Shown here: positions 10,534 through 41,536 of the stretch, in pieces | Layout of the letters: each line of letters opens with the position of its first letter | Position numbering within the stretch: the first letter of the stretch is position 1 | Assembly: GCA_025965935.1 (NCBI GenBank) | Contig: JAOPVZ010000072.1 | Location: forward strand, 1-41,536 | Length of the DNA: 41,536 bases | Direction: 5' to 3' | Source of the DNA: Frankiales bacterium | GTDB lineage: Bacteria; Actinomycetota; Actinomycetes; Mycobacteriales; SCTD01 | Notes under the pieces: model-generated | What the model was told of the DNA's origin: nothing | Database searches by the model: none | Seen by the model: only the letters and a program-made list of their open reading frames with translations | Position numbers and translations under genes: made by a program

Positions 10534-11094
10534 ATGACGACGTCCACCCCCGACATCACCCCTGGCATCACTCCTGACACCAAGGACTGGACCTGGGTCT
10601 TGGAGCGGCCCTGCCCGGACTGCGGCTTCGACGCCGGCAGCCTCGAGCGCGCCGACGTGGCACCACGGCTGCGCCAGGCGGCCGCCGACCTGGCCGCGGC
10701 GCTGACGCTGCCGGATGCCACCGTGCGCCCTCAGCCCAGCACCTGGTCCACGCTGGAGTACGCCTGCCACGTCCGGGACGTGTTCCGGATCTTCCTGGTG
10801 CGCCTTGAGCTCATGCTTGCGCAGGACGACCCGCTGTTCGGCAACTGGGACCAGGACGAGACGGCCGTTGCCGAGCGGTACGGCGAGCAGCAGCCGTCCG
10901 TCGTCAGCCGCGAGCTCAACGAGGCGGTCGAGGTGCTCGCCGGCCGGTTCCAGGAGCTGCCAGCAGACGTCTGGCAGCGGCCCGGCCGGCGCAGCGACGG
11001 CGCGGCCTTCACCGTGACGACGTTCAGCCAGTACCTCGTGCACGACCCGGTGCACCACGTCTGGGACGTCCAGCACGGCGCCGCCGCCCCATGA
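10534..11094 (+). CDS. DinB-like family protein
   Basis: WTWVLERPCPDCGFDAGSLERADVAPRLRQAAADLAAAL...WSTLEYACHVRDVFRIFLVRLELML...YLVHDPVHHVWDV. Confidence 0.8.
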   Translation: MTTSTPDITPGITPDTKDWTWVLERPCPDCGFDAGSLERADVAPRLRQAAADLAAALTLPDATVRPQPSTWSTLEYACHVRDVFRIFLVRLELMLAQDDPLFGNWDQDETAVAERYGEQQPSVVSRELNEAVEVLAGRFQELPADVWQRPGRRSDGAAFTVTTFSQYLVHDPVHHVWDVQHGAAAP

Positions 11095-11185
11095 TCGACG
11101 GAGACTCACCTCGTACCTGAGGTGCCTGGCAGCGCGCCAACTCTCCGTGGATCACGGCAGCAAAGATGGCTTCCCAGCTGCGCGC

Positions 11186-11656
11186 TCAGCCCGCGACGCG
11201 GAGCTCGAGCAGCTGCTGCGTGTGCCGCGGCACGTGGTCCGCTGCCAGGCCTCCGATCAGGCTCTCCAACGTCAGCGGCTGGTCCACAGCGACCGCCTCG
11301 TTCGAGACCAGGAGCGAGGGCACGAGCACCTGCGCGGCAGCGTCGGTGAGCCGATCGCCGACATCGCAGAGGACTTCGGTCGTCCGCCGGACGCTGTCGA
11401 TCAGCGCGGCACGGTCGGCGTGCTCCGCGACGATCCGCGCCAGGTTCCAGCGGTCGAGCGAGACCCGATTGTCGAACGTCGGCCGGGAGCCGGCCACCAC
11501 GCCGAGCGCGACGGCGGTGATCCCGGCATCGATGCTGAGCAGGTGTGCCAGCAGCTGGTCCGCGTTCCAGCCACCGTCGGCCGCCTCGCCGAGCTCAGGG
11601 GAGGCAGCGGCGTCGAGCAGCTGGTCGTAGGCGGCTTGCAGTGCTGTGGTGTCCAT
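11186..11656 (-). CDS. Maleylpyruvate isomerase-like / DinB-fold protein
   Basis: MDTTALQAAYDQLLDAAASPELGEAADGGWNADQLLAHLLSIDAGITAVALGV; WxxDQLLAH motif. Confidence 0.6.
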   Translation of the reverse strand: MDTTALQAAYDQLLDAAASPELGEAADGGWNADQLLAHLLSIDAGITAVALGVVAGSRPTFDNRVSLDRWNLARIVAEHADRAALIDSVRRTTEVLCDVGDRLTDAAAQVLVPSLLVSNEAVAVDQPLTLESLIGGLAADHVPRHTQQLLELRVAG

Positions 11657-11664
11657 GACGCGTG

Positions 11665-12003
11665 TCACTCCGGCTTTGCGCGCTGGATGGCTTCCGCGAT
11701 CCGCTTGATGCGCCGCAAGCGCGCGTCCCAGGCGGATCCCACTGAGGCGAGCTGGGCGACCGCGCGCGCAAGCTGTGCCTGGTCGACCTCGTAGCGGATC
11801 TCGCGGCCGGACGGTGTCGGATGCACGAGACCCACCCGGTCGAGGACGGCGAGATGCTTCGCGACGGCTTGCCGCGTCACCGGAAGGTGCTCGCTGAGCG
11901 CGGTCGCGGTGGGGCCCCCGCCGGCCAGCAGGAGATCGAGCACTCGTCGGCGGGTCGGGTCGCCGATCGCCGACCAGAGCTCGTCGTCGACGGCCGCGGT
12001 CAT
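11665..12003 (-). CDS. ArsR-family winged-helix transcriptional regulator
   Basis: MTAAVDDELWSAIGDPTRRRVLDLLLAGGGPTATALSEHLPVTRQAVAKHLAVLDRVGLV; start overlaps the SRPBCC stop. Confidence 0.9.
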   Translation of the reverse strand: MTAAVDDELWSAIGDPTRRRVLDLLLAGGGPTATALSEHLPVTRQAVAKHLAVLDRVGLVHPTPSGREIRYEVDQAQLARAVAQLASVGSAWDARLRRIKRIAEAIQRAKPE

Positions 12004-12467
12004 GGCGCGGTGACCAACTTCGTGAGGTACGTGCGCAGGCCGCCGGCGAAGTGGGTGTCCCAACCGACGACGTGCTCGTTGTACTGCTGCTCGAGGACGG
12101 CCGCCTCCCAGCCCCGCTCGCGGAACCCGGTCTCCGTCAGCCGCACCGTCGTCCCTTCGCCCGTCGGGACGAGCGTCATGGTCACCAGCAGCGAGTTGCC
12201 CGAGGTCGGCTGCGCATCGTCGGCATACACCCACCGGAAGGAGAAGAGCCGCGGCCGTTCCGCCTCGACGACCGTGAGCCGAGCGACATGAGCGTCTTCG
12301 CGGCACGGGTCACCCCACACCAGCTCACCCGTCGCGCCGGCCACTGGCGCCAGATCCGCCTCCGCGTTCCACCACTCGCGGATGTGCGCGGGGGTGCTGA
12401 TCACCTCGAACACCACCTCCGGCGAGGCGTCGATGTGGAACTCGCGCTCGATGATCCCGTACTCCAT
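12000..12467 (-). CDS. SRPBCC / AHSA1-like domain protein
   Basis: IEREFHIDASPEVVFEVISTPAHIREWWNAEADLAPVAGATGELVWG...VTMTLVPTGEGTTVRLTETGF. Confidence 0.9.
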   Translation of the reverse strand: MEYGIIEREFHIDASPEVVFEVISTPAHIREWWNAEADLAPVAGATGELVWGDPCREDAHVARLTVVEAERPRLFSFRWVYADDAQPTSGNSLLVTMTLVPTGEGTTVRLTETGFRERGWEAAVLEQQYNEHVVGWDTHFAGGLRTYLTKLVTAP

Positions 12468-12479
12468 GGTGGTACCTTC

Positions 12480-12496
12480 CGCAACGTTGGGTTGCG
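12480..12496. promoter_or_regulatory. Inverted repeat CGCAAC-GTTGG-GTTGCG, candidate ArsR operator
   Basis: Perfect 6-bp arms, 13 nt upstream of the SRPBCC-arsR start codon; degenerate second copy CGCAACTGATGGTTACG near 12524-12540. Confidence 0.55.
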
Positions 12497-12542
12497 AGTC
12501 AGGCTAGCCGTCGACTCCGGCATGCGCAACTGATGGTTACGG

Positions 12543-12707
12543 ATGGCCGCGCCGTCCAGGCGGTCGTTGGGACGGCAGTTCGGCTGGTTGTGGGCGGCAT
12601 ACGCGGTCAGCGCGTACGGGTCCGGGCTGGGACTCGGGGCACTTCCGCTGATCGCAGTGCTGGCGGTGCTCGTACCTGACGCCGATAATCGACATTATGT
12701 CAGATAG
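12543..12707 (+). pseudogene. Truncated MFS transporter N-terminal fragment (54 aa)
   Basis: ATG at 12543 translates to MAAPSRRSLGRQFGWLWAAYAVSAYGSGLGLGALPLIAVLAVLVPDADNRHYVR*; typical MFS N-terminus/TM1, then a stop; missing from the supplied ORF track because of its length. Confidence 0.7.
12678..12705. other. dif: dif-like XerC/XerD recombination site
   Basis: GACGCCGATAA-TCGACA-TTATGTCAGAT: 11-6-11 architecture, conserved ATAA...TTATGT core as in E. coli dif (GGTGCGCATAA TGTATA TTATGTTAAAT). Confidence 0.82.
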
Positions 12708-12786: not shown

Positions 12787-13161
12787 GTGACAGAGCGCAA
12801 GGTCCTGCAGCCCTCCGATGAGCACCCGATCACCGTCCGGCGCACCGGAGGGCGGGTCGTCATCCGCCGCGGCGACGCCGTCGTGGTCGACACCCGCGAC
12901 GCGCTGACCCTGCAGGAGGCCAGCTACCCGGCCGTGCAGTACGTGCCGCGCAAGGACGTCGAGCTGAGCCTCCTCGAGCGCAGCCAGCACACCACGTACT
13001 GCCCGTTCAAGGGTGACGCCGCCTACTTCAGCCTGCCGGACGTCCCGAACGCGGTCTGGAGCTACGAGGCGCCGTACCCGGCGGTCGCCGAGATCCAGGA
13101 CCACCTGGCGTTCTACCCGCAGCACGTCGACGTCGAGGTCCTCGAGGTCGACGCGGCCTGA
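12787..13161 (+). CDS. DUF427 domain-containing protein
   Basis: TERKVLQPSDEHPITVRRTGGRVVIRRGDAVVVDTRDALTLQEASYPAVQYVPRKDVELSLLERSQHTTYCPFKGDAAYFSL...NAVWSYEAPYPAVAEIQDHLAFYPQHVDVEV. Confidence 0.9.
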   Translation: MTERKVLQPSDEHPITVRRTGGRVVIRRGDAVVVDTRDALTLQEASYPAVQYVPRKDVELSLLERSQHTTYCPFKGDAAYFSLPDVPNAVWSYEAPYPAVAEIQDHLAFYPQHVDVEVLEVDAA

Positions 13162-39275: not shown

Positions 39276-39776
39276 TCAGCGGCCCCGGAGGCGGCGCACC
39301 AGGATGCTGGCGTCGCCCTTTGCCTCGAAGTCGGCCAGCACCACGGCCAGCGCCTCGCGCACCACGCGTCCGCGGTCGACCGGCAGCCCGTGGTCGCCGC
39401 GGAGTGCCAACCGGGCGTGCTCGAGATCCATCAGCTCGTCGGCCGACAGGTAGACGGTGATCTTCTCGTCGTGGCTCTCACGGCCACTGGGGCGGCGGTC
39501 CGCCAGAGCGCGCGGACGACGCCGGCTGGCCGACCGCACAGCGCTCGAGGCCTCATCGAGCCCGTCGTGGTCGTCGGTGCCATCCGCCGGGGCAGCCGGC
39601 GGCGGGACGGGCGACCGCATGGGCGGCGGCAGGGGTGAGGAAGGAGCCGCGGGCTCGGCGTAAGGGGCCACGGTGAGCGCGGCCGGTCGGCTGGGCTCCT
39701 CGGCGGCTGGGCGCGCGGAGTCCCCGGTCGAGCGGAACAGCTCGTCTGCCCCGGGCAGAGCGATGCGACGGCTCAT
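39276..39776 (-). CDS. Ribbon-helix-helix-like accessory protein downstream of parA
   Basis: Disordered Pro-rich N-terminus then KITVYLSADELMDLEHARLALRGDHGLPVDRGRVVREALAVVLADFE. Confidence 0.6.
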   Translation of the reverse strand: MSRRIALPGADELFRSTGDSARPAAEEPSRPAALTVAPYAEPAAPSSPLPPPMRSPVPPPAAPADGTDDHDGLDEASSAVRSASRRRPRALADRRPSGRESHDEKITVYLSADELMDLEHARLALRGDHGLPVDRGRVVREALAVVLADFEAKGDASILVRRLRGR

Positions 39777-40630
39777 CGGGAGAGCACCTCCTTGGCGAGG
39801 TCACGGTAGGCGGTCGCGCCGGTCGAGTTCGACGCGTAGGACGTGATCGGCTCGCCGGCGACGGTCGTCTCCGGAAAGCGCACCGTGCGGTTGATGACGG
39901 TGTGGAACACCCGGTCGCCGAAGGCCTCGACGACCCGTGCGAGCACCTCGCGTCCATGCAGGGTGCGAGCGTCGTACATCGTCGCGAGAATCCCCTCAAG
40001 CTCAAGTTGAGGGTTGAGCCGCTCCCGGATCTTCTCGATGGTCTGGATGAGGAGGGCCACACCGCGGAGGGCGAAGAACTCGCACTCGAGCGGGATGATG
40101 ACCCCCTGGGCGGCCGTCAAGGCGTTGACCGTCAGCAACCCCAGTGACGGCTGGCAGTCGAGGAGGATCACGTCGTAGTCGTCCAGCACGGGCGACAGCG
40201 CACGCACCAGCGTCTGCTCGCGGGCCACCTCGTTGACGAGCTGGACCTCAGCCGCCGAGAGGTCGATGTTGCTCGGCAGCAGGTCCATGCCCGGCACGTT
40301 GGTCTTGAGCATCACGTCGTCGACGGTGACGTCCTGCTCCATGAGCAGGTTGTAGACCGTCCGGTCGAGCTGAAGCGGGTTCACGCCCAGTCCGACGCCC
40401 AGGGCGCCCTGTGGGTCGAGGTCGACGAGCAGCACCCGGCGGCCGAGCTCCGCGAGGGCGGCGCCGAGGTTGATGGTGGAGGTGGTCTTGCCGACCCCAC
40501 CCTTCTGGTTGCACATGGCGAGGACCCGGGCCGGCCCGTGCCGGTCGAGCGTCGGCGGCGTCGGCAGGTACGGCAACGGCCGTCCGGTAGGGCCGGTCAT
40601 GCCAGGCTCGAGGGCGGGCTTTGTCGACAT
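39773..40630 (-). CDS. parA: ParA-family chromosome partitioning ATPase
   Basis: ARVLAMCNQKGGVGKTTSTINLGAALAELGRRVLLVDLDPQGALGVGLG; start at MSTKPALEPG. Confidence 0.95.
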   Translation of the reverse strand: MSTKPALEPGMTGPTGRPLPYLPTPPTLDRHGPARVLAMCNQKGGVGKTTSTINLGAALAELGRRVLLVDLDPQGALGVGLGVNPLQLDRTVYNLLMEQDVTVDDVMLKTNVPGMDLLPSNIDLSAAEVQLVNEVAREQTLVRALSPVLDDYDVILLDCQPSLGLLTVNALTAAQGVIIPLECEFFALRGVALLIQTIEKIRERLNPQLELEGILATMYDARTLHGREVLARVVEAFGDRVFHTVINRTVRFPETTVAGEPITSYASNSTGATAYRDLAKEVLSR

Positions 40631-40768
40631 ACTCACAAGTGGCCGAACCTCTCTGATGATTTCGTGCCGTCCCGACTTCTCGCCTTGACGATGCGGCGGG
40701 ACTCTACGTGGCCGGACGGCCCCATTACAACGTCGTGCACGGAATTGGGGACGACACGCCGCAGACCC

Positions 40769-40819
40769 TGTGGACAACCACCCGACACCCGGGGACACCG
40801 GCCGTGACCCTGTGGACAA
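40769..40819. promoter_or_regulatory. Two DnaA-box-like elements (TTGTCCACA on minus strand) in 14-bp direct repeats, parA-xerD intergenic
   Basis: TGTGGACAA at 40769-40777 and 40811-40819; repeat GACCCTGTGGACAA at 40764-40777 and 40806-40819. Confidence 0.6.
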
Positions 40820-40858
40820 GCCCCGCCAGCGCGATCGGCCGCGGTACGAGACGGTCGG

Positions 40859-41536
40859 TCAGCCCAAGGCTCGCGGATGCGCTCCCGCGTAGACCTCGCG
40901 GAGCTGGTCGACCGTGACCAGCGTGTAGATCTGCGTCGTGGTGACCGAGGCGTGCCCGAGCAGCTCCTGCACGACGCGCACGTCCGCTCCCCCGTCGAGG
41001 AGGTGGGTGGCGAAGGAGTGCCGGAGAGTGTGCGGCGAGACCTTGGCGGTCAGACCGGCGCGCCCGGCTGCGGCGCGCAGGACGGCCCACGCACTCTGGC
41101 GGGACAGCGGCCCGCCACGGGCGTTGAGGAACAGCGCCGGACCGCCTCGACCGGTCGCTGCGAGCGCGGGCCGCCCACGGACGAGGTAGGCGTCGACGGC
41201 ACGCAGCGCGTAGGACCCGACCGGCACGATGCGCTGCTTTCCTCCTTTGCCGGCCAGCCGCACGAGGCCGTCTCCGCGACCGAGGTCGTCCACGGCGAGG
41301 CCCACGACCTCGGAGATCCGGGCGCCGGTCCCGTAGAGCAGCTCCAGCAGAGCGACGTCCCGCGACGACAGGGGCGTGTCGCCGGTGCTCGCTGCGCCCA
41401 GCAGGGCGGACACCTGCGCGACGGAGATCGCCTTGGGCAGGCGTCGTGGCGGCTGCGGCGGCTTCACGTCCGTGGCGGGGTCCACGGCGGTCAGCCCTTC
41501 CCGAACGGCGAACCGGTGGAAGCCACGCACAGCGAC
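40859..41536 (-). CDS. xerD: Tyrosine recombinase XerD, N-terminus beyond the window
   Basis: [22 protein letters not shown]...[11 protein letters not shown]...[57 protein letters not shown]. Confidence 0.95.

Follow-up and report, generated by a model that had tools for sequence, protein, structure and literature searches.

A foreign operon and the severed start of a transporter gene lie flush against the chromosomal dif site of a Frankiales bacterium

Why should the coding sequence of a transporter end at the site where a bacterial chromosome is resolved? The dif site is where joined chromosomes are separated, and it is also a recognised landing site of specialised elements that imitate it. 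In a 41,536-nucleotide stretch of a Frankiales genome (hereafter the window; contig 98 of a 3.07-Mb, 315-contig assembly that is 84.8% complete), a short open reading frame starts as an MFS transporter and then runs into dif (Table 1). A first-pass annotation had read this arrangement either as the signature of an Xer-mediated deletion or integration, or as a transporter gene that had been broken at the terminus. Comparison with relatives leads to a different picture, in which the transporter start belongs to a 1.5-kb insert that is foreign to the family, is flanked on both sides by native DNA, and has both its ends where dif is positioned.

The site itself is a typical actinobacterial dif, i.e., a 28-bp Xer site with conserved arms of which one copy exists per chromosome, and it is present as a single copy in the window's genome. 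The chance expectation for this 28-mer in the window is 0, and it closely resembles the published dif of Frankia alni, CACGCCGATAATGCACATTATGTCAAGT (PMC3025954). Sites of this type were found in 26 of the 61 genomes searched, with 0 control matches, and are conserved across the order. At the end of the window (positions 39773-41536), ~28 kb from dif, are two genes of the ParA and Phage_integrase families, the latter XerD-like.

As the first-pass annotation held, the 54-aa reading frame begins as a genuine MFS N-terminus. A Pfam search with its product, MAAPSRRSLGRQFGWLWAAYAVSAYGSGLGLGALPLIAVLAVLVPDADNRHYVR, returned no match because the fragment is short, while tblastn searches in other families of the order aligned it to a full-length MFS protein (L034, identified as MFS_1 with an E-value of 3.5e-25) with 77% identity over 43 aa (E-value 4e-16), and to full-length MFS proteins from L035, L036, and L037 with 74, 81, and 63% identity, respectively. 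Another 17 homologs match at 66-89% and read on for 341-435 aa, for a total of ~20 full-length homologs of the fragment, from other families. These include Micromonospora-like MFS_1 transporters (L108-L118) whose first ~40 codons are 83-89% identical in protein to the fragment, yet which are full-length, unlike the fragment in the window: instead of a frame of ~400 aa with 12 membrane segments, the latter spans 54 aa and has its stop inside dif. The possibility of a stand-alone small peptide was rejected, as the 54-aa frame aligns to full-length MFS proteins and displays no conservation on its own. Neither of the two outcomes that the annotation had named as speaking against its reading, namely a conserved stand-alone peptide or homology ending well before dif, was observed. 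The fragment is probably without function.

At the DNA level, homology to MFS genes ends between window positions 12655 and 12672 depending on the homolog, and at 12664-12672 for the best ones, i.e., ~6-14 bp short of the dif 28-mer, and the initial observation is confirmed. If a gap of two codons is allowed, the aligned region could reach into the XerC arm (AVLVPDAD, vs AVLVLDAD in L035), but this extension is not claimed here, since dif alone dictates CGCCGAT and the alignment is therefore ambiguous. The remaining ~375 aa of the transporter, which the annotation had proposed to look for elsewhere, were not found in the 85%-complete genome, where the other matches are paralogs with 27-28% identity. 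Other genomes of the family yielded no ortholog either, the best matches being paralogs at 25-33%. Where the transporter gene and dif can be placed on the same contig in the homolog genomes, the smallest distance between them is 44 kb.

The surroundings of dif reveal what was interrupted. Across the genus, G004 included, and in a large part of the family, dif occupies one conserved slot, in the order apolipoprotein N-acyltransferase-like, mannosyltransferase-like, FxsA-like, RbpA-like, NlpC, (DinB), dif, (DUF427), VWA, etc., where the first gene names were assigned by reading the sequences. In the window, the DinB_2 protein of the left flank is 73% identical to the protein encoded immediately left of dif in the sister species G006 (67% for G004 and 56% for G005), and the DUF427 protein of the right flank is 74% identical to that encoded just right of dif in G006. 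In this sister species, DinB is followed by the hairpin and then by dif ~80 bp past the DinB stop, with no interruption, whereas in the window the matching DinB and hairpin (10534-11160) are separated from dif by a further 1.5 kb. When the sequence preceding dif in G006 is aligned to the window, it matches positions 11100-11165 (score of 28, vs -20 with a standard deviation of 8 for shuffles) and not the window's own pre-dif sequence; the stretch from 11160 to 12677 is therefore an insertion, with a left edge at most ~15 bp from the sister's dif position and a right edge formed by dif. This exact empty site was seen in one sister species (G006). Together with the lack of an ortholog in the family, the uninterrupted DinB-terminator-dif arrangement speaks against the suggestion of a resident transporter broken at the terminus. 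What survives of the initial interpretation is an MFS start cut off at dif, with the arrival of foreign DNA as the cause in place of a resident transporter cut by Xer.

Table 1. Features of the window around dif, with positions counted from its first nucleotide.
Feature	Position	Strand	Remarks
Native DinB_2-family gene	10534-11094	+	Left flank of the insertion; Pfam DinB_2
Native terminator-like hairpin	11095-11160	+	TGATCGACGGAGA ... TCTCCGTGGATCA; aligns to G006 pre-dif sequence
11-bp repeat, first copy	11110-11120	+	CTCGTACCTGA; in native left flank
Left junction of the insertion	about 11160-11168		
Foreign insert	11160-12677		From native terminator to dif; absent from the other genus and family genomes searched; starts at the dif position of G006
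DinB2-like gene of the insert	11186-11656	-	83% identity to L174 in protein
ArsR-type regulator of the insert	11665-12003	-	Pfam HTH_20 and HTH_5; 90% identity to L174
AHSA1/SRPBCC gene of the insert	12000-12467	-	Pfam AHSA1, E-value 5.5e-16; 81% identity to L174
Perfect inverted repeat	12480-12496		CGCAAC-N5-GTTGCG, upstream of AHSA1; read from sequence; also in L174
54-aa ORF	12543-12707	+	Start of an MFS_1 transporter gene (~40 codons), continuing through the dif bases to a stop
11-bp repeat, second copy	12669-12679	+	CTCGTACCTGA; between the MFS fragment and the invariant CGCC of dif
dif	12678-12705	+	28-mer GACGCCGATAATCGACATTATGTCAGAT; Xer site with conserved arms
Native DUF427 gene	12787-13161	+	Right flank of the insertion; Pfam PF04248

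The insert comprises a leftward AHSA1-ArsR-DinB2 operon along with the divergent MFS start, and includes no phage or integrase gene. Its sequence is absent from the six other genomes of the genus and from the other family genomes searched, and none of the 23 other family genomes has its AHSA1 gene. The closest operon was identified in a distantly related Frankiaceae MAG (BP_190, L174), where 1360 bp (window positions 11193-12550) are 85% identical in DNA, compared to 66-73% for housekeeping DNA between the window and L174, and 78-87% within the genus. In a tree of AHSA1 and ArsR, the window and L174 are joined with 100/100 support, while many families are otherwise mixed. Taken together, the high identity of the operon relative to housekeeping DNA and this tree show that horizontal exchange occurred, in one direction or the other. 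The perfect inverted repeat upstream of AHSA1 represents a candidate ArsR operator, judging from its sequence, and expression of the operon may be controlled by the ArsR that it encodes.

The operon of L174 contains the same three genes in the same order as the window and likewise adjoins dif, its DinB2 stop being ~50 bp away. This is the sole dif found in that genome, and the L174 contig is therefore probably not misbinned. Unlike in the window, the L174 operon is found right of dif with no MFS gene beside it, so that the MFS piece of ~115 bp was either already next to the operon in a donor outside the sampled genomes or came in as a second fragment. An MFS gene is not a regular neighbor of this operon: of 80 loci, that of Actinomadura macra (L242) is the only one with a related MFS at a distance of a few kb. 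Cryobacterium and Aeromicrobium encode the same AHSA1-ArsR-DinB2 genes in the same order as the window, and no dif was found at these two operon loci.

The two junctions hold different information. At the left one, no second dif or dif remnant was detected within 5 mismatches (best match p = 0.48), and traces of the XerC and XerD arms were no better than in shuffled sequences (p = 0.80 and 0.79). At the right one, the clear part of the MFS homology ends outside the Xer strand-exchange region, and is followed by an exact direct copy of 11 bp from the native left flank (CTCGTACCTGA), a word with only two copies in the window. A repeat of this kind was obtained in 4 of 5000 shuffles and 55 of 20,000 random pairs; it could be due to chance (about 1e-3), and the second copy is possibly templated filler. 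Such a copy of the recipient's flank is the expected residue of templated end joining in the recipient. Ku (PF02735) was identified in the window's genome (G000) and in nine relatives, and in Escherichia coli the terminus is known to break around dif at division (PMC5638614, PMC5862497).

Based on the lack of a left dif or half-dif, the 11-bp flank copy at the right joint, the presence of Ku, and terminus breakage in E. coli, we favor a scenario, to which we give about an even chance, in which foreign DNA was captured by end joining at a break beside dif, while dif itself was kept through XerCD binding and selection. The chromosome would have broken just left of dif, the terminus being break-prone at division, and incoming DNA carrying the operon and ~40 MFS codons would have been joined in by Ku-type end joining. 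Trimming would have halted at dif because XerCD covers the site, a protection that we infer, and because cells losing dif are selected against. The transporter would then stop at dif because the join lies there, and not because Xer cut the gene. This locus resembles Ku-dependent capture at a double-strand break in that the insert has no end repeats, a broken gene and a possible short copied filler are found at the joint, and Ku is present. It differs in that an insertion exactly at dif is not explained by end joining alone, and the mechanism is drawn from one event. A literature search on end-joining capture of foreign DNA in mycobacteria returned nothing on point. The scenario is also weakened by an exact empty site in a single sister species and by a donor genome outside those sampled. 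Moreover, end joining leaves as a coincidence that the L174 operon is itself dif-adjacent, and that, with respect to the former position of dif, the operon in the window is ordered and oriented as in L174.

This coincidence is what keeps alive a second scenario, possible but clearly less probable, in which Xer integrated a dif-bearing circle (dif-DinB2-ArsR-AHSA1 and the MFS start) at the chromosomal dif, yielding a dif-insert-dif arrangement from which a deletion of ~60-75 bp removed the left dif and fixed the insert. An insert that starts at the G006 dif position and ends at dif would be accounted for, as would the L174 operon beginning ~50 bp right of its genome's only dif in the same order. 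Integrative elements known as IMEX provide a precedent, as they use dif and are stabilized when one site is altered (PMC5357621, PMC9765430), and they likewise place foreign DNA precisely at dif, with a functional site remaining at one of its ends. In contrast to IMEX, however, which are bounded by two dif or dif-like sites, the window's insert is 1.5 kb long, has a truncated gene at its joint, and includes no second dif or dif-like site, no far half-site, and no element genes; insertion at the chromosomal dif, established by comparison with G006, is what the two share. This scenario also requires that the closure point of the imported circle lay within ~10 bp of dif and that a second event followed, while a copy of the recipient's flank at the right joint would be odd for an imported circle. 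With a single dif, no far half-dif, no phage or integrase gene, and transporter homology ending outside the strand-exchange region, the Xer signature as initially annotated was not recovered.

An artefact of metagenome assembly, in which reads from two organisms were joined at a shared dif, was also considered, since the assembly is incomplete and fragmented and dif is a 25-30-bp word common to many relatives. Both sides of the insert are of native type, however, which would require two false joins, the left one away from any dif, and the GC content of the insert (70.1%) is close to that of the window (71.3%), making this explanation improbable. Finally, the presence of AHSA1-ArsR near dif in several families could indicate that the order had this operon next to dif from the start, that the other family members lost it, and that a local rearrangement moved dif across it and cut a resident MFS gene, but this is largely refuted and very improbable, given that losses would be needed in 23 of 24 family genomes, that the operon's identity to L174 exceeds that of housekeeping DNA, which shows recent exchange, and that the family has no MFS ortholog.

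Beyond this locus, many actinobacterial families have AHSA1-ArsR homologs no further than 5 kb from dif, in most cases on its right side and reading toward it (L164, L165, L166, L073, L161, L162, L167, L190, L228, L247, and L253). Distances to dif range from ~70 bp in a Nocardioides MAG (L190) to ~475 bp in G127 and G282, 544 bp in G294, 0.7-1.1 kb in Nocardia (L247 and L253), 1.2 kb in G039, 1.4 kb in G241, and 2 kb in G162. Overall, 16 of 64 scorable loci are at most 5 kb from dif, with at least 8 state changes on the tree, a proportion to be taken as a lead and not as a rate because it partly reflects shared ancestry and because some loci were added for being dif-proximal. One reading, which we consider rather unlikely, is that AHSA1-ArsR (in some cases with DinB or SRPBCC) is an unrecognised dif-linked cassette, with no recombinase of its own, that travels between the dif sites of different actinobacterial families through XerCD or through capture at dif breaks, its 3' end being repeatedly beside dif, and that the window shows it with a broken passenger gene still attached to one side.

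Other dif neighborhoods also deviate from the usual order. In G004, from the same genus, a run of small hydrophobic ORFs replaces the usual neighbors right of dif (L168, 4939-7295), the contig ends inside this run, and the XerD arm of dif reads ATTATGTAAGGT instead of ATTATGTCAGGT as in relatives. One of these ORFs has a signal peptide and is weakly similar to TrbC/VirB2 pilins. This run has the appearance of another element that integrated at dif; we do not call it a filamentous phage because the pilin-like protein has no relative among viral contigs and its TrbC match is sub-threshold. No Zot-bearing filamentous phage was found in the genus. Separately, tyrosine recombinase genes occur 0.2-1.5 kb from dif in several families, including L174 (5234-6695), L038 (G025, +339 from dif), L074 (G031, +565), L163 (G236, +590), and L164 and L165 (G127 and G282, about -1.5 kb), and are followed by a small HTH gene in L174 and G025. 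These possibly correspond to dif-linked elements or to dedicated recombinases.

Overall, foreign genes may have landed at dif repeatedly in these bacteria. In the window, ordinary genes from another lineage and the end of a broken gene lie flush against dif, with neither an element nor a second site. If such events are recurrent, as the dif-proximity of AHSA1-ArsR suggests, the terminus would gain genes without the need for a dif mimic, and break repair beside an XerCD-bound site would represent a testable source of horizontal gene transfer.
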